DNA from: an uncultured Bacteroidota bacterium
Lineage (GTDB): Bacteria; Bacteroidota; Bacteroidia; Bacteroidales; 4484-276
Assembly: GCA_903944895.1 (NCBI GenBank)
Contig: CAJATL010000336.1
Location: 1-34,705 of the forward strand
Length of the DNA stretch: 34,705 nt
Direction of reading: 5' to 3'
In this document: positions 2,861 through 32,772 of the stretch, one piece after another
How the letters are laid out: every line of letters starts with the position of its first letter
Position numbering within the stretch: the stretch's first letter is position 1
The notes under the pieces: generated by a model
Databases searched by the model: none
The model's input: the letters and a program-made list of their open reading frames with translations, nothing else
What the model was told of the DNA's origin: nothing
Made by a program: the position numbers and the translations under genes

Positions 2861-4927
2861 ATGGTAAAAATTAAAGATTTGACGCTTCATCGCGAAATCA
2901 GTTGGCTTCATTTTAACCACCGTGTGCTGCAGGAAGCCAGGGACGAAACCACGCCATTGATTGAACGAATGAAGTTTTTAGGAATTTTTTCGAACAACCG
3001 CGATGAGTTTTTCAGGGTGAGGGTAGCCACACTTAACCGCATGATTAATGTCGAAAAGCTCGATTACCGGATAAAAGCATCACCCAAAGAAATCTTAACC
3101 GAGATTTTCGATATTGTTTCGGAGCAGGAAAAAGTATTCACCGAAACTTACAATGAAATTGTCAGTAAGCTTAAAGAACGGAACGTTTTTATCATCAACG
3201 AAAACCAGCTTACTCAGCGGCAGGGCGAATTTGTAACCAACTATTTTCACAACAATGTGAGGCCGCTGCTTTTCCCGATCATGCTCGATAATCTTAAGGA
3301 CAGCAACAGTTTCGAAGACCGGTCCATTTACCTCGCTATCCAGCTTTTGTCGGGCCACGATCCCGACAAGGAGGAATTTGCCATCATACGCGTCCCTGTT
3401 CAGCAACTTTCGCGCTTTTTGATTTTGCCCAGGGAGGAGGGTAAAATCTTCATTATTCTGCTCGATGATGTAATTCGTTATTGCCTGCAATACATTTTTT
3501 CGATTTTTGGATACGACTCCTACAAGGCTTACACCATCAAAATTACCCGCGACGCCGAGCTTGATATTGATAATGATATTCAGAAAAGCTTCCTCGAAAT
3601 CATGAGCGAAAGCCTGAAGCAACGCGAATTGGGTGAGCCTGTGCGGTTTGTTTATGATAAAGCGATACCCAAAAATTTACTCAACATTATCCGCGAAAAA
3701 CTGCATCTTTCCGAAGAAGACCTTCAGCGTGGCGGGGGGAGGTATCACAACTTCAAAGATTTTATGAATTTCCCCAGGGTTGGCCCTGACGATTTGTGTT
3801 ATCCAGATTCACCACCCTTGCTTAACAGGGATTTGCCCATTAACAAAAGTATTTTCGAGGTAATCCGACAGCAGGACATCATGCTTCACTACCCGTATCA
3901 GTCGTTTCAATACATTATCGATCTGCTGCGCGAAGCTTCAATCGACCCAAAAGTTCGATCGATAAAAATGACATTTTACCGCGCTGCCAGCCACTCCAAC
4001 GTGATCAATGCTTTGATAAATGCCGCCAGAAACGGGAAGACTGTTACCGTATTTCTCGAGCTTCAGGCCAGATTTGATGAGGAGGCCAATATTTTTTGGG
4101 CAGAGCAATTGCAGAAAAACGGGGTTAGAATCTTACCGACTATTCCGGGTCTGAAGGTTCACAGCAAACTCATTCTGATTCGCCGGAAGGAAAATCAGAA
4201 AAATGTTTTTTATGCCAACATCAGCACCGGAAATTTTAACGAATCAACCGCCAGGGTTTATGCCGACGAAAGCTTGCTGACATCTCATCCCGGCATCACG
4301 GGTGATGTTTACAAAGTTTTTCAGCTTTTCGAAACCCGCTATTCTATTCCCCGGTTCAAAGAACTGATTGTTTCGCCATTCAGTACCCGCGATTTTTTTA
4401 TCCAGAAATTAAACCGTGAAATCAAAAATGCCAAAGAAGGAAAAGAAGCCTGGGCAATCATAAAGCTCAACAGCCTTTTGGATAAAAAAATTATCCGTAA
4501 ACTTTACAGTGCAAGCCGTGCAGGTGTAAAAATTACGATTATTGCCAGGGGAATGTGTGTGCTTATTCCCGGAATCCCGGGCAGCAGCGAAAATATTGAA
4601 GCCATCAGCATTGTTGATAAATTTCTTGAACATTCGCGGGTGTTTGTTTTTTGTAATGATGGCGACAACAAATTTTTTATTGGCTCTGCTGATTGGATGC
4701 AACGAAATCTGGATTACCGCATCGAAGTTACCTGCCCGATTTATGACAAAAAAATAAAGGAAGAACTTTGGACCATGCTTCAGATTCAAATGAACGACAA
4801 TTGCAAAGCACGCAATATCAGCCGGGATAATCCAAATCAATACCGTAAAACTACCTCAGAAGTACCCGTGCGATCACAAGTTGAAATCTACAAATACTTC
4901 AAAAATAAATATGACGAAAACAGCTAA
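2861..4927 (+). CDS. ppk1: Polyphosphate kinase 1
   Basis: This is a full-length PPK1 of 688 residues, close to the usual 690. It reversibly polymerises the gamma-phosphate of ATP into inorganic polyphosphate. The N-terminal domain opens with LHREISWLHFNHRVLQEA; the N-terminal and head (PPK_M) domains cover about residues 8-310. Two phospholipase-D-like catalytic domains follow. His434 in LKVHSK is the expected autophosphorylated histidine and His591 in LEHSRVFVF the second essential one, at almost the same numbers as in the E. coli enzyme (435 and 592). NISTGNFNESTARVYADE and RNLDYRIEV are other conserved motifs. It follows the SixA-like gene by 12 bp. A 7-bp repeat begins at the base after the stop codon. 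Confidence 0.97.
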   Translation: MVKIKDLTLHREISWLHFNHRVLQEARDETTPLIERMKFLGIFSNNRDEFFRVRVATLNRMINVEKLDYRIKASPKEILTEIFDIVSEQEKVFTETYNEIVSKLKERNVFIINENQLTQRQGEFVTNYFHNNVRPLLFPIMLDNLKDSNSFEDRSIYLAIQLLSGHDPDKEEFAIIRVPVQQLSRFLILPREEGKIFIILLDDVIRYCLQYIFSIFGYDSYKAYTIKITRDAELDIDNDIQKSFLEIMSESLKQRELGEPVRFVYDKAIPKNLLNIIREKLHLSEEDLQRGGGRYHNFKDFMNFPRVGPDDLCYPDSPPLLNRDLPINKSIFEVIRQQDIMLHYPYQSFQYIIDLLREASIDPKVRSIKMTFYRAASHSNVINALINAARNGKTVTVFLELQARFDEEANIFWAEQLQKNGVRILPTIPGLKVHSKLILIRRKENQKNVFYANISTGNFNESTARVYADESLLTSHPGITGDVYKVFQLFETRYSIPRFKELIVSPFSTRDFFIQKLNREIKNAKEGKEAWAIIKLNSLLDKKIIRKLYSASRAGVKITIIARGMCVLIPGIPGSSENIEAISIVDKFLEHSRVFVFCNDGDNKFFIGSADWMQRNLDYRIEVTCPIYDKKIKEELWTMLQIQMNDNCKARNISRDNPNQYRKTTSEVPVRSQVEIYKYFKNKYDENS

Positions 4928-4962
4928 AGCGCAGAGCGCAGAGCGCAAAGTGCAAAGAGCAG
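4928..4962. repeat. Five-unit 7-bp tandem array abutting the ppk1 stop
   Basis: Starting at the base after the ppk1 TAA, five heptamers follow in phase: AGCGCAG, AGCGCAG, AGCGCAA, AGTGCAA, AGAGCAG. The spacing is exact and the sequence drifts from left to right. It shares its period, but not its sequence, with the arrays at 9421, 20506, 22459 and 29482. Confidence 0.9.
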
Positions 4963-4988
4963 ACTACAACACCGATAACCCGGGGTTC

Positions 4989-5281
4989 CAAAATTCCATT
5001 CTTCCATATTTCTATTCCCGCCAAATCGGGCTTTCGGCTAACGCCTCAACATTCCCCCCGATAGCTATCGGGGTTCCAACATTCCATTCTTCCAACATTC
5101 CATTCTTCCATTGTCGCCCCGATAGCTATCGGGGGTCGAATTCTTCCACTATTCCATTCTTCTCCCGCCGAAGCGGGATTTCGGCTAACGCCACAACATT
5201 CCACTATTCCAACATTCCAACATTCCAACATTCCACTATTCCAACATTCCATTCTTCCACTATTCCATTTTTCCACTCCAA
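4989..5281. repeat. Composite repeat patch: 8-bp array with palindromes and paired hairpin elements
   Basis: This fills most of the 364-bp gap between ppk1 and ppx. Units of 8 bp with consensus CAnnnTTC (CAACATTC, CACTATTC, CATTCTTC) occur at 4989-5012, 5047-5054, 5077-5108 and 5147-5162, and run without a break from 5194 to about 5281. Two perfect 18-bp palindromes, CCCCGATAGCTATCGGGG, interrupt the array at 5056-5073 and 5117-5134. A 29-bp element with a CCCG/CGGG hairpin occurs at 5017-5045 and again at 5164-5192, with 3 mismatches. Frames that stay open across it only spell repeated IPFFHSK- or WNVGMLE-like peptides and are not genes. No promoter for ppx was recognised in it. Confidence 0.9.
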
Positions 5282-5291
5282 ATAAAAACTA

Positions 5292-6829: not shown

Positions 6830-7516
6830 ATGGAAGAGAAAAAAAGTAAAAAAGCTGACCTGGAAAGCAGAAGAACGCTTTTTTTGGAATTAGGCCTGGT
6901 CTTTACGCTGGCTTTTGTGTTGTTTGCTTTCAATTACAAGTCATACGACCGTTCAGAAGGTTCAAATATTCAACGTGTTGTTGACAATACGCCTGAGGAT
7001 ATCATCCCGATCACCAAGCAGGAAGTAAAACCACCACCTCCTCCTCCTCCAAGACAGGTAACGGTGATTAACATTGTTGAAGATAATGTTGAGGTTGATA
7101 CTGATCTTGAAATCGACATGGAAGCCGACCAGTCGACCGAAGTGCAGGATTATGCACCGATAGCTGAAAACAGGAAGGAAGAAGAAATTGTTGAAATGGA
7201 AATTTTCACCGTGGTTGAATCGATGCCCAGTTTCCCGGGAGGCGATGCTGCCCGGATGAAATTTCTGCAGGAAAATATCAAATACCCGCAAATGGCCCGT
7301 GAAAGCGGAATACAGGGAACTGTGTATGTAACTTTTGTTGTCGAGCCTAACGGTAAGGTTTCTGATGTAAGAGTATTGCGTGGTATTGGCGGTGGTTGCG
7401 ATGAAGAAGCAGTTCGCGTTATCCAGAGCATGCCTAAATGGGAAGCCGGAAAGCAGCGTGGTAAATCTGTAAGGGTTCAGTTTAACATGCCGATCAAATT
7501 TACGCTGCAGGGTTAA
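6830..7516 (+). CDS. tonB: TonB-family energy transducer
   Basis: This encodes 228 residues. A cytoplasmic head of about 15 residues precedes a transmembrane anchor (about 17-34, LFLELGLVFTLAFVLFAF). A periplasmic linker follows with seven consecutive prolines (68-74) and an acidic stretch. The C-terminal TonB domain (about 135-228) contains PSFPGGDAARMKFLQENIKYP, GIQGTVYVTFVVEPNGKVSDV, RVLRGIGGGCDEEAVRVI and the final MPIKFTLQG. It transmits proton-motive force from ExbBD to outer-membrane receptors. ExbB and ExbD are not in the window. It lies 147 bp after gcvH on the same strand, so it may have its own promoter, although I see no clear box. It is convergent with uvrC across a shared terminator. 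Confidence 0.93.
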   Translation: MEEKKSKKADLESRRTLFLELGLVFTLAFVLFAFNYKSYDRSEGSNIQRVVDNTPEDIIPITKQEVKPPPPPPPRQVTVINIVEDNVEVDTDLEIDMEADQSTEVQDYAPIAENRKEEEIVEMEIFTVVESMPSFPGGDAARMKFLQENIKYPQMARESGIQGTVYVTFVVEPNGKVSDVRVLRGIGGGCDEEAVRVIQSMPKWEAGKQRGKSVRVQFNMPIKFTLQG

Positions 7517-7540
7517 AATTGCAGATAATATTATTTAAGA

Positions 7541-7576
7541 AAAATCCCGGAAGTATTAACTTTCGGGATTTTTTTT
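7541..7576. terminator. Bidirectional terminator between tonB and uvrC
   Basis: AAAATCCCGGAAGT pairs with AACTTTCGGGATTTT across a 3-5 nt loop, followed by a long T run on the + strand and TTTTTC on the minus strand. It therefore serves both convergent genes. The right half overlaps the last codons and stop of uvrC (stop at 7556-7558), so the uvrC 3' end is part of the hairpin. Confidence 0.85.
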
Positions 7577-9379
7577 GAAATACTCAAAAACAACTTTTCC
7601 TTTTGACTCCCCGATTACTGCCTGTAATTCTTCAAGGCTAGCCTGCCTGATTTTCTTTACCGACTTTAATTTCAACAGTAATTTCCGCGCAAAAGTTTCG
7701 CCAATACCGGCAATGTTGGTAAGATCGGTTTTGATGGTTCCCTTTTCGCGTTTTTTGCGATGATGTGTTATGCCAAAACGATGCGCTTCGTCGCGTAAAT
7801 ACTGGATTACCCGCAAAGTTTCCGATTTTTTATCGAGATAAATGGGCACCGAATCATCTGGAAAATAGAGTTCTTCCAGTTTTTTGGCAATCCCGATGAT
7901 GGTGATTTTTCCTCTCAGATTTAATTTCTCAAGGCTGGTCACTGCCGAACTTAACTGTCCTTTTCCGCCGTCAACCACGATAAGTTGCGGCAATCCCTGG
8001 TTTTCGTCAAGCATTCGTTTGTATCTGCGGTAAATCACCTCCTCCATCGAGGCGAAATCGTTGGGGCCTTCCACAGTTTTGATGTTGAAATGACGATAAT
8101 CCTTTTTGCTGGGTTTTGCATCGCGGAAGCAAACCATGGCCGCCACCGGATAATCGCCCTGGATATTTGAATTATCGAAACACTCGATGTGTGCCGGAAG
8201 TTCCTTCATCCGGAGGTCTTTCATCATCGTGTTTAAAATCCGTTTGCTATGCCTGTCGGGATCAACCAGCTCGACCTGTTTGCGCTTTTCGAGCATGTAA
8301 TATTTTGCGTTGCGTTCCGAAAGGTCGAGCAATTGCTTCTTGTCGCCGATTTTTGGAATCGTAAAAGTTACTCCCGGAATTTCCAGGTCAAGGTCAAACG
8401 GGATGAGCGCCTCTTCGGAATTGCTGTCGAATCTTTGCCTGAAATCGGCAATGGCGAGTGAAAGCAATTCATCGTTGGGTTCGTCGAGTTTTTTCTTCAT
8501 CTCGACCGTATGCGCCTGAACGATGGCGCCATCAACAACTTTCAGGTAATTGGCATAACCGGCTTCGTCGTCGCTGATGATCGTAAAAACATCCACATTA
8601 TGGATTTTCGGATTCACCACCATCGATTTGCTCTGGAACCGTTCCAGCAGAATAATTTTCTCTTTCACAACCTGAGCCTTCTCAAATTCGAGGGTTTCGG
8701 CATATTTTTTCATCAGGTCCCGCAGGTTCGAAAGCACATTGTTGATGTTTCCCTTGAGGATTTCGGTGATATGCAAAATGGTCTGCATGTATTCTTCTTC
8801 AGCCTGAAAACCTTCGCACGGTCCTTTGCAGTTTCGAAGATGATATTCGAGACAGATTTTGAATTTCTTGTCTTTGATATTTTTTTCGGTAAGGTTAAGC
8901 GTGCAACTTCTGAGGGGATAAAGCTGGCGCGTGAGTTCGAGGAGGGTGTGCATCATCCGCACCGAAGCGTAAGGCCCGAAATAGGAAGATCCGTCGTGAA
9001 TGATATTTCGGGTAGGAAAAACCCGTGGAAACCGCTCCTTTTTGATGCAAATCCACGGGAAAGTCTTATCATCTTTAAGGTTGATATTATAGCGCGGCTG
9101 GTACTTTTTGATGAGATTGTTTTCGAGCAGAAGCGCATCCAACTCCGAACTAACAACGATGTGGCGGATATCAGCAATTTTGCGGACCATCACCGAAGTT
9201 TTTCCGCTTAAACTGCTGTCTTTATTAAAATAAGATAAAACACGCTTTTTCAGCGATTTTGCTTTCCCGACATAAATGATCTTCTCATGCTCATCAAAAA
9301 ACTGGTAAACTCCCGGATTGTCAGGAAGCGTTTTGAGAAGCAGTTCAAGTTTTTCGATATGTGGGTTGGTTTTTTGCAA
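7556..9379 (-). CDS. uvrC: Excinuclease ABC subunit C
   Basis: UvrC makes both incisions in nucleotide-excision repair within the UvrBC complex. This copy has 607 residues, the usual length. The GIY-YIG nuclease is at about 20-100, with GVYQF (23-27), IYVGKAK (35-41), Arg46 and Glu86. Four cysteines at 159, 176, 184 and 188 match the proposed iron-sulfur cluster ligands of UvrC. A UVR helix hairpin lies near 215-252 (LEFEKAQVVKEKI). The RNase-H-like nuclease carries ECFDNSNIQGDYPVA, IVVDGGKGQLS and DEAHRFGITHHR, and a C-terminal helix-hairpin-helix contains NIAGIGETFARKLL. The only workable start is TTG at 9379: the upstream frame meets TGA two codons earlier and there is no early ATG. Confidence 0.96.
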   Translation of the reverse strand: MQKTNPHIEKLELLLKTLPDNPGVYQFFDEHEKIIYVGKAKSLKKRVLSYFNKDSSLSGKTSVMVRKIADIRHIVVSSELDALLLENNLIKKYQPRYNINLKDDKTFPWICIKKERFPRVFPTRNIIHDGSSYFGPYASVRMMHTLLELTRQLYPLRSCTLNLTEKNIKDKKFKICLEYHLRNCKGPCEGFQAEEEYMQTILHITEILKGNINNVLSNLRDLMKKYAETLEFEKAQVVKEKIILLERFQSKSMVVNPKIHNVDVFTIISDDEAGYANYLKVVDGAIVQAHTVEMKKKLDEPNDELLSLAIADFRQRFDSNSEEALIPFDLDLEIPGVTFTIPKIGDKKQLLDLSERNAKYYMLEKRKQVELVDPDRHSKRILNTMMKDLRMKELPAHIECFDNSNIQGDYPVAAMVCFRDAKPSKKDYRHFNIKTVEGPNDFASMEEVIYRRYKRMLDENQGLPQLIVVDGGKGQLSSAVTSLEKLNLRGKITIIGIAKKLEELYFPDDSVPIYLDKKSETLRVIQYLRDEAHRFGITHHRKKREKGTIKTDLTNIAGIGETFARKLLLKLKSVKKIRQASLEELQAVIGESKGKVVFEYFKKNPES

Positions 9380-9416
9380 AGATCAGATGGATTTTTGTGA
9401 TTATGTTTTATTTAAA

Positions 9417-9504
<88 letters not shown>

Positions 9505-9518
9505 ACGAAAATCCCAAC

Positions 9519-9590
9519 TTTAGGCACTCTAAGTACTCTAAGTACTTTAGGCACTCCAAGTACTTTAGGCACTCCAAGTACTTTAGGCAC
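9519..9590. repeat. Eight-unit 9-bp tandem array containing the thiL stop codon
   Basis: Eight nonamers lie in exact phase with consensus TYYARGYAC: TTTAGGCAC alternating with TCTAAGTAC or TCCAAGTAC. It starts 14 bp after the 7-bp array. The rightmost unit (9582-9590) holds the thiL stop codon, read on the minus strand at 9585-9583, and encodes its last residue. Confidence 0.95.
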
Positions 9591-10638
9591 TTCTCTCTTT
9601 CATGTGATCCCATCCCTGTGCCTTTATTTCGACCTGCGACCCTGATTTTGTGATCAGGTTAACGCCCATACTTTTATCGGTCATGAATCCGATAATGGAG
9701 ATTTCGAGGATGTTCTTCATAATCTCGTAATCGGCCTGCCGGATGGTGAAAAGCAGTTCGTAATCTTCACCTCCATTGAGCGCATAAAGTGTGGGGTCCA
9801 TGTCGAAGCTCCGTGCTGCATCGTAAGTAAACTGCTCGATGGGAATTTTTTCTTCAAAAACGGTGCAGCCCAGGTTGGAGTGTTTGCAGATATGCTTGAT
9901 TTCGGAGGCCAGGCCATCAGAAATATCAATCATGGCGGTGGGTTTTATGCCTGTTTTTTCAAGAATTTCGATGATATCCATGCGGGCTTCGGGTTTTAGC
10001 TGTCGTTGGAGGATGTAATCGTAGCCGTGAAGTTCGGGCTGCATTTCCGGATTGGCTTTGTAAACCGCTTTTTCGCGCTCCAAAACCAACAAGCCGGCAT
10101 AAGCGCCACCAAGATCGCCCGAAACACACAACAGGTCGCCTTCGTTGGCCGGACCGCGGTAAACAACTTTATCTTTTGCAACTGTGCCAACAGCAGTCAC
10201 CGACAAAACCAGTCCCTGAACGCTGCTGCAGGTGTCGCCTCCAACAAGGTCAACTTTGTATTTTTCGCAGGCAAGATACATCCCGGCATACAATTCTTCG
10301 ACGGCTTCCAGCGAAAAACGGTTCGACATGCCCAGGCCGATAATCACCTGCTGCGGTGTTCCGTTCATGGCGTAAATATCCGAAAGATTTACCACGATGG
10401 CTTTATATCCCAAATGTTTGAGCGGCATGTAGGTAAGATCGAAATGGATGCCTTCGAGCAGCAGGTCTTTGGTGATGAGCGTGAATTTATCACCCGAATC
10501 AATCACTGCGGCATCGTCTCCAACGCCTTTCACGGTTTGTGGATGATGTATTTTAACCCCCGAAGTCAGGTGGTCGATCAGGCCAAATTCGCCCAACTCC
10601 GAAATTTCCATTCGCTTTGTTCCTCTTTTTTCAAACAT
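9583..10638 (-). CDS. thiL: Thiamine-monophosphate kinase
   Basis: ThiL phosphorylates thiamine monophosphate to the active cofactor thiamine diphosphate. The 351 residues are in the normal range. The PurM/AIRS-like fold is shown by LGEFGLIDHL near the N terminus, GVGDDAAVI (Mg-ATP binding), KDLLLEGIHFDL, NLSDIYAMNGTP, VGGDTCSS, SGDLGGAYAG, MIDISDGLASEI and LNGGEDYELLF. The start MFEKRGTKRMEISELGEFGLI looks like the N terminus of other Bacteroidota ThiL proteins, so the ATG at 10638 is used rather than Met10. The final codons and stop lie inside a 9-bp microsatellite, so the extreme C terminus (ERSA) is probably a product of repeat invasion. No other thi gene is nearby. Confidence 0.94.
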   Translation of the reverse strand: MFEKRGTKRMEISELGEFGLIDHLTSGVKIHHPQTVKGVGDDAAVIDSGDKFTLITKDLLLEGIHFDLTYMPLKHLGYKAIVVNLSDIYAMNGTPQQVIIGLGMSNRFSLEAVEELYAGMYLACEKYKVDLVGGDTCSSVQGLVLSVTAVGTVAKDKVVYRGPANEGDLLCVSGDLGGAYAGLLVLEREKAVYKANPEMQPELHGYDYILQRQLKPEARMDIIEILEKTGIKPTAMIDISDGLASEIKHICKHSNLGCTVFEEKIPIEQFTYDAARSFDMDPTLYALNGGEDYELLFTIRQADYEIMKNILEISIIGFMTDKSMGVNLITKSGSQVEIKAQGWDHMKERSA

Positions 10639-20474: not shown

Positions 20475-20505
20475 CCCGCATTATCCTAATCTAGATAAAC
20501 CCGAA

Positions 20506-20582
20506 ATGACAAATAACAAAAAACAAAACTCAAATAATTCCTTGATCTAATTGGTGATTTGTGATTTGAATTTTGTGATTTC
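20506..20582. repeat. Degenerate 7-bp array between convergent genes
   Basis: Eleven heptamers can be read in one phase: ATGACAA, ATAACAA, AAAACAA, AACTCAA, ATAATTC, CTTGATC, TAATTGG, TGATTTG, TGATTTG, AATTTTG, TGATTTC. Neighbouring units resemble each other, but the two ends do not. It lies in the 158-bp gap between the antiporter and asparaginase stop codons, where no clear terminator was found. Confidence 0.6.
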
Positions 20583-20632
20583 TGCCAAAAAAAACATCAA
20601 ATTCAAAGAAAAGAGCCTATTGCCGGGGGTTT

Positions 20633-21660: not shown

Positions 21661-22443
21661 CTATTTTAAATTATGCATCATTTTACTAAAATCGATCAGA
21701 TCGAATAAATGTGCCGAGGTTACCAAAATTACCGCCACGATTACCCATTTTACAAAGCTGGCTCCGCGGCTTACAGCCATTCGCGCTGCAATAAATGCAC
21801 CAAGCACATTTCCCACAGTCATCACCAGGCCGTACGTCCAGTTTACGCTTCCGTTTAAGATGAATACGACCAGGGTAAAAGGTGTGTAAAGCAAAACGAT
21901 TAGAACCTTGATGGCGTTGGCTTTTACAAGTTCGTAACCGGCGCTGAGAACAATTGCTGCGAGCAAAAAATAGCCGATGCCCACATGAATAAAACCACCA
22001 TAAATGCCAATAACAAAAAACAACAAAACCTGCCAGATGGTGATTTTTTTTTCGATGAGGTGCTTTTGCTCTTTGATCCATTTTTCGGGATTATAAAGGA
22101 TTGCGAAAAGCATGAACAGCATCACAATGGCAACCGCCTTTTCGAATATTTCCTCGTTGATATCCACGGCTATCCAGGCTCCGAGTAACGAACCGATTGC
22201 GGCCGGAACTGCCAGCCAGAAGCCTTTTTTGGTGTCCAAAACTTTTTGATGCCTGAAGCTTGCGGTAGCTGTAAATGTCTGAATGGCGATGGCGATGCGG
22301 TTGGTGCCATTGGCCACGGTTGCCGGCAAACCCAAAAACATCAGCATGGCCAGCGAAATTACCGATCCGCCACCAGCAAGGGTGTTAATGAATCCGGCAA
22401 GAAATCCGGCAATTGTTAACGAAATTATTTCAAACCAACCCAT
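21661..22443 (-). CDS. TauE/SafE-family membrane transporter
   Basis: This encodes 260 residues, almost entirely hydrophobic, with about eight membrane helices. The family hallmark is the duplicated four-helix unit: the first opens FLAGFINTLAGGGSVISLAML with PATVANGTNRIAI, and the second carries GIYGGFIHVGIGYFLLAAI with KANAIKVLIVLLYTP. Members export sulfite, sulfoacetate or other organosulfur anions, or take up related anions; the substrate here is unknown. It is the first gene of a two-gene operon with the asparaginase-type lipoprotein, 5 bp apart. The long 7-bp array begins 15 bp upstream of its start codon, so its promoter must lie within or beyond that array. Confidence 0.88.
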   Translation of the reverse strand: MGWFEIISLTIAGFLAGFINTLAGGGSVISLAMLMFLGLPATVANGTNRIAIAIQTFTATASFRHQKVLDTKKGFWLAVPAAIGSLLGAWIAVDINEEIFEKAVAIVMLFMLFAILYNPEKWIKEQKHLIEKKITIWQVLLFFVIGIYGGFIHVGIGYFLLAAIVLSAGYELVKANAIKVLIVLLYTPFTLVVFILNGSVNWTYGLVMTVGNVLGAFIAARMAVSRGASFVKWVIVAVILVTSAHLFDLIDFSKMMHNLK

Positions 22444-22458
22444 AAGTTATTAAAATTA

Positions 22459-22689
22459 CAAAACTCAAAACTCAAAACTCAAAACTCAAATTTCAAATTG
22501 GCAGTTGCAAGTCGTTAGGCGTAAGTAGTGAGTAATTAGCCGGAAGTTGGCAGTTGGCAGTTGGCAGTTGCCAGTCGGCAGTCGGCAGTCAATCATAAAT
22601 CATAAATCATAAATCAATAGTAGCCAGTCGGCAGTTGCCAGTCGTAAGTCGTAAGGCGTAAGTCAATCAAAAATCAAAAATCTGAAATC
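22459..22689. repeat. Thirty-three-unit phase-coherent 7-bp array with drifting unit sequence
   Basis: The 231 bp can be cut into 33 consecutive heptamers without one indel. It begins with four CAAAACT, then CAAATTT, CAAATTG and GCAGTTG, passes through CAAGTCG, TTAGGCG, TAAGTAG and TGAGTAA, and returns to GCAGTTG three times. It goes on to CCAGTCG, GCAGTCG and GCAGTCA, three ATCATAA, GTCGGCA, GTTGCCA, two GTCGTAA, GGCGTAA, two AAAAATC and TGAAATC. Blocks of identical units alternate with gradual change. It fills most of the 312-bp gap between the hybrid kinase gene and the TauE/SafE gene. No gene or clear promoter is visible here. Confidence 0.9.
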
Positions 22690-22755
22690 CTCAATGAGAA
22701 GCGTTTTCGACGGTTTTGAATTGCATTTTGAGTTTTGATTTCTTGGTTTTTGAAA

Positions 22756-24561
22756 TCACCCTGGTTGTTGAACATTCCCAATCAAAATATTATGAAGCAA
22801 TTCGGCCAGTTCCTTTTGTTTAAATGGCTTGCTGATGTAGCCATCCATCCCGGCGGCAAGGCAGGCTTCGCGGTCGCCTTTCATGGCGTTGGCGGTGAGG
22901 GCAATTATTGGGACATGACGCATGAATTTTTTATTTTTTAAAATGCGGTATTGTTCGATGGCTCTGATTTTTTCGGTGGCCTTAAAACCATTCATCACAG
23001 GCATTAAAACATCCATCAGGATCATGTCGAATTTGCCACTCTTAAATTTCATCACCGCTTCATGCCCGTTTTCAGCCAGTTCGACTTTGTAGCCAGCTTG
23101 CCTGAGATTGTGTAACGCAATTTTCTGATTGATTTTGTTATCCTCTACCAAAAGCACCGACAAATCTTTATCGATACGGGAAATCAGTTCGAGTTTTTCC
23201 TTTTCGATAACCACGACTTCTTTATCTATTTTATCAACCTTGCCAAATTCGGCAGTAAACCAAAAGGTTGAACCTTTTCCGAATTTGCTGTCCATGCCAA
23301 TTTTGCCATTCATCATTTCGACCAGCTTTTTTGAAATGGACAAACCGAGTCCGGTTCCGCCATATTTGCGGGTTGTAGAGGCATCGACCTGCGAAAACTC
23401 CCTGAAGAGGCTTTTTCGGCCTTCTTTTGAAACGCCGATTCCGGTGTCGTTAACCTCAAAACGAAGAAGATGATGGTTTTGCTTGTTTTTTTCAAGTTTT
23501 ATTCTCACCTCAACATGGCCTTTGGCGGTAAATTTTATGGCGTTGGAGGCAAGATTTAGGATGATCTGTTTGAGCCGGTGTGGGTCGCCTTTAAGTATTT
23601 CCGGGATTATTTCGTCGTAATTAATCCTGAAATCCAACCCTTTTTCGTTGGCTTTGGTGACCAATATTCGCTCAACATCACCCAAAACATTTGGTAACGA
23701 AAACTCAATAATTTCAAAATCGAGTTTTCCGGCTTCAATTTTTGAAAAATCGAGCACATCGTTAATGAGACTCAAAAGACTGTTTGCCGAAACATCGATC
23801 GCATCGAGGAGCAAAACCTGTTCGCCGTTAAGCTCGGTTTGTTTAAGAATTTCGGCCATGCCAATGATGCCATTCATGGGTGTGCGTATTTCGTGGCTCA
23901 TGTTGGCGAGAAATTCACTTTTGGCTTTTGTCCCTGCCTCGGCTTGTTCTTTGGCTTTTTTTAATTCGATTTCATAATTCTTTCGGTCGGTGATATCGTA
24001 AGAAACGCCAACCAACCCAATAACCTGGCCTGATAAATTTTTTACAGGAGCAAGGTTTGTCGAAAGATAAATTTCTGAATTTTGTTTTTTTATAACCTCT
24101 TCAACATTATAAACCGGGAGGCCGCGACCGAGCACATCCCTTTCAATTTTTTCATAATCGGCATTATTGTATTCAGGAAGTAAAGCATTGTTTTTTTTGC
24201 CTGCGATGTTCGCCATTTTGACATTGAGAAAATCTTCAAAAGCATTGTTTACAAGCTGGTATTCTAAATCGACATTTTTAAAATATACCAGCGCCGGAAT
24301 TGCAGAGAGTAAGGTGGAAAGCTCTTCGGCTCTTATTTTGAGGCTATTGAGCGCAAGGTTGAGATCTTTGGACGTTTTGGCAAGCAATGAATAAATGATG
24401 TTTTTGTCTTTGTTGGCACGGTCGTACTTAAAATGCAAAGCTTCATTTTCCTTTTTGAGCACAGTAAACTGCTCAAATATTTGACTTTTTAAACTCTCAA
24501 ACTCTTCGAGAGATTTAATGGAATTAAGCTTTTCGGTGATTTCAGTAATCCGGTTCGACAT
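22756..24561 (-). CDS. Soluble PAS-containing hybrid histidine kinase
   Basis: This encodes 601 residues with no transmembrane segment, so it is a cytoplasmic sensor. Residues 1-85 are mostly coiled coil. A PAS domain lies at about 82-195 (IPALVYFKNVDLEYQLVN through VGVSYDITDRK). The HisKA dimerisation helix carries phospho-accepting His223 in FLANMSHEIRTPMNG. The ATPase domain has the N box (Asn340 in LNLASNAIKF), G1 (NDTGIGV), the F box (FREFSQVDAS) and G2 (GGTGLGLS). A C-terminal receiver domain at about 467-595 has Glu473/Asp474, phospho-accepting Asp517 in MILMDVLMP, and Lys578. No HPt or DNA-binding output is present, so signalling needs another protein. The FIST gene lies 32 bp upstream in the same direction and is its likely partner. 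Confidence 0.93.
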   Translation of the reverse strand: MSNRITEITEKLNSIKSLEEFESLKSQIFEQFTVLKKENEALHFKYDRANKDKNIIYSLLAKTSKDLNLALNSLKIRAEELSTLLSAIPALVYFKNVDLEYQLVNNAFEDFLNVKMANIAGKKNNALLPEYNNADYEKIERDVLGRGLPVYNVEEVIKKQNSEIYLSTNLAPVKNLSGQVIGLVGVSYDITDRKNYEIELKKAKEQAEAGTKAKSEFLANMSHEIRTPMNGIIGMAEILKQTELNGEQVLLLDAIDVSANSLLSLINDVLDFSKIEAGKLDFEIIEFSLPNVLGDVERILVTKANEKGLDFRINYDEIIPEILKGDPHRLKQIILNLASNAIKFTAKGHVEVRIKLEKNKQNHHLLRFEVNDTGIGVSKEGRKSLFREFSQVDASTTRKYGGTGLGLSISKKLVEMMNGKIGMDSKFGKGSTFWFTAEFGKVDKIDKEVVVIEKEKLELISRIDKDLSVLLVEDNKINQKIALHNLRQAGYKVELAENGHEAVMKFKSGKFDMILMDVLMPVMNGFKATEKIRAIEQYRILKNKKFMRHVPIIALTANAMKGDREACLAAGMDGYISKPFKQKELAELLHNILIGNVQQPG

Positions 24562-32585: not shown

Positions 32586-32772
32586 ACACGGAGAACACGG
32601 AAGAATATTTCAAAAAACAAAAAACAAACACGGAGGCACGGAGAGAATGGAGGATCACAGAGGAAGATTACGAAAACGCACGAAACCTACCAGGTTTTTA
32701 AAACCTGTGAGGTTTTAATATCGAAAAACTTGTTTAAAAAATAATTCTCCGTGTACTCCGTATCTCCGTGGT
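32586..32772. repeat. Inverted-repeat element between the TPR and beta-barrel genes
   Basis: The left arm (32586-32646) carries repeated ACACGGAG-type motifs, and the right arm (32747-32772, CTCCGTGTACTCCGTATCTC) carries their reverse complement. Between them, 32683-32715 forms an imperfect hairpin with a perfect core palindrome CAGGTTTTTAAAACCTG at 32691-32707. The whole fills nearly all of the spacer and looks like a small REP/MITE-like element. No open frame of interest is inside it. If transcribed it could attenuate or stabilise the TPR/beta-barrel mRNA. Confidence 0.65.

Follow-up and report, generated by a model that had tools for sequence, protein, structure and literature searches.

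The intergenic array at positions 22459 to 22689 of the window (the whole stretch of 34,705 nucleotides analysed, from an uncultured bacterium of the Bacteroidales) is probably a noncoding heptanucleotide tandem array that is renewed by replication slippage in 7-nt steps, a reading to which a probability of about 0.6 is given. Slippage is inferred here from the sequence pattern. The array is one of many in its genome and not a singular locus. It appears to be a variant of known heptamer arrays, from which it differs in that it is not G-rich, its word drifts, and several word families are joined in one array. It may be regarded as a natural record of slippage, with no evident new device in it.

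The 231 bp tile into 33 heptamers, as the original prediction had proposed; 23 of these are distinct and neighbours lie at Hamming distances of 0 to 5, so near-identity of the units is not found along the array. The predicted runs of identical units (CAAAACT x4, GCAGTTG x3, ATCATAA x3, GTCGTAA x2, and AAAAATC x2) were all present. Compared with 5000 dinucleotide-preserving shuffles, lag-7 identity was 164/224 (0.732) versus 0.264±0.032, and no shuffle was as high. A lag-7 autocorrelation no higher than that of shuffled controls had been named beforehand as a possible refutation, and the value found lies far above the shuffles. Identity was also elevated at lag 14 (0.618) and lag 21 (0.495), with 0/5000 shuffles as high at each, and a weak excess occurred at lags 11 and 18 (84/5000 and 50/5000 shuffles as high); the remaining lags, among 3-20, were near or under expectation. 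When 49-bp sub-windows were used, lag 7 exceeded all others among lags 4-12 from 22440 to the end of the array. The earlier claim that the period outlives the sequence is supported.

The array lies between a TauE/SafE-family transporter gene (PF01925; 21661..22443, minus strand, supported by an open reading frame and a family match), whose start codon at 22443 is 16 bp away, and a gene for a PAS-HisKA-HATPase-response-regulator hybrid histidine kinase (22756..24561, minus strand). The position had been described as just upstream of the transporter; this is accurate for the TauE/SafE start, and the same gap is just as much the 3' flank of the kinase gene. On the plus strand, the array begins with CAAA-type heptamers (CAAAACT x4, CAAATTT, and CAAATTG; 22459..22500), recognized by the heptamer tiling and a pattern count in the genome. 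A first block of AGT-type heptamers (GCAGTTG, CAAGTCG ... GCAGTCA; 22501..22591), identified by tiling, similarity search, and AGT spacing, is followed by AATC-type heptamers (ATCATAA x3 and ATCAATA; 22592..22619) from the tiling. Also on this strand are a second AGT-type block (AGTAGCC, AGTCGGC, AGTTGCC, AGTCGTA x2, and others; 22619..22661), supported by Tandem Repeats Finder, tiling, and spacing, and a second AATC-type block (GTCAATC, AAAAATC x2, and TGAAATC; 22662..22689), again from the tiling. The exact 7-bp phase claimed originally holds for the lag-7 periodicity, which is unbroken, but not for the AGT core, which shifts inside the 7-bp frame: its register moves by 4 across the AATC-type block at 22592..22619, and the successive AGT at 22587 and 22619 are 32 bp apart. 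The 7-bp periodicity runs on through this shift (22587-22619), and Tandem Repeats Finder reported a 74-bp repeat with 0% indel over 22551-22689.

On the minus strand, a TTTG-type (inverted CAAA-type) stretch at about 22715..22755 adjoins the kinase stop codon and is complementary to 22455-22497. It is only weakly 7-periodic (lag-7 identity 0.39-0.48), and its complementarity to the CAAAACT-bearing part extends over 43 bp at 80% and is weak when taken alone (E 0.165 in the genome search). The fold of the tauE-kinase gap had a z of -2.73, with 1/100 shuffles as good. A known structured RNA family was rejected, since Rfam gave no match at the gathering threshold across the whole window.

Arrays of this kind are abundant in the source genome (G000), a 7.17-Mb draft of 424 contigs with an estimated contamination of 4.21%. 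A genome search with the array gave at least 91 matches up to E 10, the target included; this is a lower bound, because 40 of 252 candidates were scored. Three consecutive CAAANNN heptamers had 408 (overlapping) matches, versus 39 for the reversed control pattern. In an array-blind sample of 48 stretches ordered by contig number (L063-L071 and L073-L111; 550,915 bases), 19 segments had period 7, two had period 8, and two had period 12; none had periods 2-6 or 9-11 in the same 551 kb. Within the parts of the genome covered, 7 is the prevailing period among short-period arrays. The 19 segments lay on nine contigs, and 17 were left once duplicates were removed. Contigs C3, C9, C60, and C100 are absent from this series, and the array density is if anything underestimated because C60 and C100 had already been picked as array-rich. 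Noncoding DNA accounted for 1695 of the 1799 array bases in this sample. Among gaps of at least 40 bp, arrays occurred in 8/122 co-directional, 2/37 convergent, and 2/37 divergent ones, and seven of the eight co-directional gap arrays sit no more than 67 bp from the upstream stop codon. A gene-context rule was dropped, as array-bearing gaps are too few for any bias to show. Thus the features of heptanucleotide repeats known as LSSR, namely 7-nt units beyond chance that are mostly noncoding and occupy many loci per genome, are found here. A larger catalogue of 96 arrays was mostly chosen by likeness to the array at 22459-22689 or by heptamer pattern, and counts on it are biased for that reason. 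The stretch L053, on another contig, contains about 1.5 kb of nearly unbroken heptamer DNA between divergent ORFs (7354-8870), in which phrases recur and the GCGCAGA-type ends appear complementary by eye; its longest array spans 1.3 kb (7473-8800).

The distance over which units resemble each other points to their mode of origin. Across the 30 arrays that reach 112 bp or more, identity in phase fell from 0.737 at lag 7 through 0.681 and 0.625 to 0.471 at lag 84, and off-phase identity was flat at 0.23-0.25; the fall was from 0.733 to 0.518 when the 1.3-kb array was left out. Because in-phase identity falls with distance and the off-phase curve is flat, units seem to be copied mainly from their neighbours. 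With a fixed binding motif the curve should be flat, so the steady decay speaks against one. The original prediction had offered repeated slippage or copying at 7 bp alongside selection for spacing; slippage in 7-bp steps is the best reading, and selection purely for spacing is unneeded for the decay pattern. In such a process, strands would slip during replication and pair again with an offset of one or more units. Mismatched heptamers could still pair, so that substitutions would be tolerated and amplified, while a 6- or 8-nt unit would pair badly and be amplified less often; length would be filtered in this way and sequence would not. The words would drift over time, and identical runs may be fresh duplications linked by intermediate forms. 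The AG core may move within the unit while the 7-bp frame stays, and a second influence on word choice is likely. The mismatches are uneven over the seven positions, with a median dispersion of 1.41 (above 2 in 24/96 arrays) and of 1.79 in the 30 longer arrays, and neutral simulations with multi-unit slippage gave median dispersions of 1.4-2.2. Because these simulations give a like dispersion, it was no longer maintained that constancy of the core excludes neutral slippage.

The protection of length can be judged from the spacing of the AGT core. In 54 AGT-type arrays, AGT-AGT spacing was a multiple of 7 in 657/709 cases and exactly 7 in 582. Forty of the 52 off-spacings were congruent to 3 or 4 modulo 7, and 12 to 1, 2, 5, or 6; to judge from the listed sequences, those congruent to 3 or 4 mostly reflect an extra AGT within a unit or a core shifted in an unbroken frame. 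Eleven spacings below 45 bp resemble indels of ±1/2 bp (one further exception at 58 bp was set aside), versus 1207 mismatches in 5327 lag-7 comparisons. The deficit of indels is partly a matter of ascertainment because an indel would break up a called array in about one case in three (684/1040 artificial indels remained inside one called segment), and since substitutions can also count twice, there may in truth be 35-70 substitutions for each indel. For comparison, seven other copies of the element found at 20485-20624 (taken from eight rows, with shorter partial rows omitted) showed 138 mismatches and 14 gap openings in BLAST, about 1 to 11; two of the 14 gap openings were exactly 7, which is one unit. 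The indel deficit in the arrays is of several-fold order, measured against rough controls.

Word families recur between contigs. In the 551-kb sample, 11 word classes occurred on at least two contigs, compared with a null mean of 4.2, and 0/1000 permutations were as high. This recurrence is more than independent slippage alone would give. Recent block copying among arrays is not supported as its source: a non-homogeneous exact block of at least 35 bp was shared between contigs by 2/96 arrays, no more than the means of 5-13 given by Markov models fitted to these arrays. Words shared without recent copying suggest a bias or constraint on words, or old copying that has since been shuffled. In five array-blind arrays (43 disjoint pairs), A and G mismatched at 0.05 and 0.12, versus 0.26-0.51, and 0/2000 rotations did as well. 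A and G were also the quietest positions in the 41 arrays of the full set (0/2000), in 10 arrays of G001, a sister species in the same genus (2/2000), and in two arrays of G432 (0/2000); in the three arrays of G058, the quiet positions were not A and G. Since the AG-core arrays were picked and framed by AG content, the result is partly built in. A choice-free split-half test gave 0.196 for the quieter dinucleotide versus 0.326, with the former lower in 57/76 arrays, including 9/12 array-blind arrays; in G001 it was lower in 12/14. Neutral simulations of the same test (20 units, 400 steps, with no setting matching all observed lag identities) gave ratios of 0.80-1.03 and a lower value in 32-37 of 60. 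A constant AG or CAAA core in each heptamer is thus suggested, and only suggested, by these data.

The genome of G001 carries heptamer arrays at two sites that correspond to sites in the window, with different words at one. Between uvrC and a gene resembling AIR synthase lies a second array with period 7 (9399..9521 of the window, plus strand), made of GAAGTCC / GAAGCCC words. Some twelve GAAGTCC-like units stand here in G000, and G001 has a shorter array at the site, AGTCGGC, AGTCGC, AGTCGGC, AGTGTCC, AGTTGGA, in which one unit has 6 bp. A short period-7 array (GCGCAGA / GCGCAAA) occupies 4915..4968 on the plus strand, and G001 has GCGCAGA-type units at the matching site; in both genomes TTCCANNN-type octamers adjoin these units. 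Beside the kinase gene, which G001 retains, a short tract by the stop codon has AGCCAAA-like units (lag-7 identity 0.47). The likeness suggests only tentatively that this tract may be a counterpart of the array at 22459-22689. The tauE gene was not found in the G001 genome, which is 84% complete.

More distant genomes were searched with three consecutive AGTNGNC heptamers. The pattern occurred in 14/59 relatives, own genome included, and in 85/395 genomes drawn from the phylum. Matches numbered 258 versus 3 for the control in G000, 52 versus 0 in G001, 156 versus 0 in G058, which belongs to another family of the same order, and 415 versus 2 in G432. A single phylum-wide vocabulary was rejected because the reversed control is the commoner pattern in some genomes (263 in G350 and 173 in G237). 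In small samples from genomes picked for their AGTNGNC or control counts, period-7 segments were the most numerous in G058 (4), G432 (6), and G350 (3), and in G237 period 7 tied with period 6, at one each. Period 8 had two segments in G058, yet covered more bases than period 7 (406 versus 306).

The window also contains an interspersed hairpin-like element of about 140 bp (20485..20624, plus strand), identified by similarity search and alignment with G001 and composed of a CAAANNN arm, a loop, and an NNNTTTG arm. It is absent at the G001 site, where 14 bp instead of 145 lie between the aligned blocks, and copies occur elsewhere in G001 at 69-88% identity. One copy used as a query had 32 matches in G000, itself included, and seven in G001. 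Recognizable ends and a loop, dispersed copies, and one empty site are seen for this element; among the arrays, long blocks are not shared beyond the Markov expectation. Left arms measured 28, 35, 28, 38, 28, 21, and 21 in seven copies, and right arms 21 in six copies and 49 in one. Whole multiples of 7 were found for 13/14 arms in eight copies, with anchors set by hand after the sequences were seen and with the right arm of L072 (interrupted by a palindrome) and the left arm of L147 (anchor not found) omitted. The pattern rests on these eight hand-anchored copies, since net whole-element lengths relative to the query were multiples of 7 in 4/23 fuller copies, with about 3 expected by chance, and most right arms are merely equal. 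Loops and ends of the element also vary in length. As the closest stand-in for a comparison of strains in 7-bp steps, named beforehand as a second possible refutation, these lengths give a mixed picture. A palindrome around CCCGATAGCTATCGGG was observed, as if inserted, within octamer DNA of the window (5060-5140) and in one element copy (L072 near 9480).

Alternatives to slippage in 7-nt steps differ in what they take to maintain the period. Selection could keep the spacing and a short core, either through a protein or RNA reader that makes contact every 7 nt or through pairing of CAAA and TTTG arms in register; this is unlikely. The low variability of A and G would fit such selection, but it was seen in arrays chosen by AG content and is partly due to the choice of frame and array, the three arrays of G058 have other quiet positions, and the uneven mismatches per array fit neutral multi-unit slippage. 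Identity also decays steadily with distance, unlike that of a fixed motif. Selection is favoured by word families common to unrelated contigs without long shared blocks and by the two matching sites at which G001 also has an array; sporadic presence across relatives and the lack, by eye, of a strand rule relative to genes count against it. An inverted partner within 250 bp was found for 20/96 arrays (7/17 array-blind ones), where about 1 in 41 would be expected, which agrees with arm pairing, yet most arrays have no such partner. A universal hairpin design was rejected, as those 20/96 arrays with an inverted partner compare with 43/96 that have a direct one; in G058, G432, G350, and G237 together, inverted partners accompanied 2/14 arrays and direct partners 7/14. 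A broader proposal, quite unlikely as it stands, is that a process fixed at 7 nt rewrites intergenic DNA in these Bacteroidota with a restricted vocabulary, driven by sequence-biased slippage or copying by the replication machinery or by a reader that counts cores. Each unit would hold a core of two to four bases and free positions, its length but not its sequence would be policed, and the core could jump in the frame; the reader would be a protein or RNA that meets cores at 7-nt intervals near the ends of many genes.

A patchwork origin, in which dispersed, mobile, or gene-converted hairpin elements were inserted and their heptamer arms then expanded, is decidedly improbable for the array at 22459-22689. 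It would account for an element that is missing at its G001 site yet copied elsewhere there, for the 32 and seven matches of one copy in the two genomes, for the complementary CAAA and TTTG stretches that flank the array, and for a 30-bp phrase over the AGT-AATC junction common to contigs C336 and C344. Nevertheless, the element query matches its own place alone in the window and not the array, and the long blocks shared between contigs are not above the Markov means. An assembly artefact of the metagenome bin is barely credible: repeats are hard to assemble and the genome is a fragmented draft with some estimated contamination, but like arrays occur in G001 (at two same sites), G058, G432, G350, and the Bacteroidales MAG JAGOPY010000004.1, and the units vary too much for a looped repeat. 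The array might also be a contingency locus, in which the number of heptamers sets the distance between promoter parts and switches the transporter gene; in Haemophilus influenzae, 7-bp repeats that precede the hmw genes act as such a contingency switch. The 16 bp between the array and the tauE start codon would suit this, as would the AAGTTCA heptamers that another Bacteroidales MAG has (L052 4882-4949) some 50 bp ahead of its tauE homologue. TTTG, which is the CAAA core read on the tauE strand, belongs to the Bacteroidetes promoter consensus. Such a switch is nonetheless very improbable, given that a period-7 segment was present at 1/29 other tauE loci (L022-L050, read with up to 1.5 kb of flank and several cut by contig ends), and there at a remote paralogue, that many other gaps of the same genome also carry arrays, and that adjacent units are mostly unlike except in the CAAAACT x4 part. 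Any influence of the array on tauE is taken to be slight or absent.

Heptamer repeats have precedents in several bacteria. The notion, raised after the fact, that the known bacterial heptamers have four core bases in common was dropped. The short tandemly repeated repetitive (STRR) heptamers of heterocystous cyanobacteria are intergenic 7-mers at many places per genome, and the present arrays are like them in being intergenic 7-mers at many loci of one genome; three STRR words were not found in 22459-22689. The 2007 survey by Mrazek et al. reportedly concerns perfect or nearly perfect repeats (LSSR). The present array likewise has period 7, but most of its adjacent units differ. As reported in the available text of later papers, period 7 was the commonest long class in most genomes of that survey, and a slippage hypothesis was tied to the polymerase contact of about 7 nt (PMC4692102, PMC4679880). 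A later survey, in the part available, described tandem repeats of longer oligomers as generally normal or weakly over-represented (PMC4060949). The heterogeneous heptamers GGGANTN / GGGGA(C/T)T of Xanthomonas and Nostoc are described in the available text as intergenic, with 2-26 units, often near stop codons, and mostly flanked by the same genes in two related species while length and sequence vary; slippage is cited there as a hypothesis (PMC4692102). As far as that text goes, the likeness is close, with intergenic 7-bp units, constant and free positions, and same-gene sites with changed words. Those heptamers are, by the same partial account, G-rich and can form G-quadruplexes, whereas the present array joins several word families, and GGG is absent from both strands of 22459-22689, which thus lacks the G-tract of the GGGANTN / GGGGAYT heptamers. 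The TAACTGA direct repeats of Beggiatoaceae, Cyanobacteria, and some Bacteroidetes are, in the portion available, intergenic and sporadic, with up to 43 copies; two Bacteroidetes have other heptamer repeats in the same gaps, and variants that differ by one base seldom occur as repeats in the Beggiatoa genome (PMC4679880). On that partial description, they consist of one fixed word, whereas the word drifts in the present array, in which TAACTGA is absent from both strands. In the literature covered (titles and abstract openings, with few subscription papers), none was found on drifting heptamer arrays of Bacteroidales.

For the bacterial preference for long repeats of 7 nt, the polymerase-contact hypothesis is the sole explanation in the available text of PMC4692102 and PMC4679880. 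Arrays of diverged units may be a better test bed for it than perfect repeats because their junctions record which copy made which. Step size, mismatch tolerance, and length filtering could be read from diverged arrays and compared across species. If the shared vocabulary survives a whole-genome census, slippage alone would not be the whole story.

Other periodic DNA was observed near these arrays and in other genomes. In the window at 5173-5286 and in L052 at 1409-1509, 1989-2142, and 7507-7571 there are arrays of octamers in which TTCCA is constant and the other three bases are mostly free; this form was also seen in the MAG JAGOPY010000004.1 and in G001, there both at the matching site and elsewhere. 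A 9/18-bp array of ACTTTAGGC / ACTCCAAGT at 9526-9591 directly adjoins the GAAGTCC heptamers, and the genome G005 has a 43-bp match to it at 98%, with weaker ones elsewhere. At 32590-32770, CACGGAG-type words form an inverted pair; G001 has CACTAAG-type words at the same site, and word and complement seem, by eye, to have changed together. Short arrays of G350 (L261 11306-11377, L261 17703-17792, and L262 13611-13700) resemble, by eye, back-to-back inverted arms, and the AGT arrays of G000 are mostly one-sided, unlike these hairpin-like arrays.
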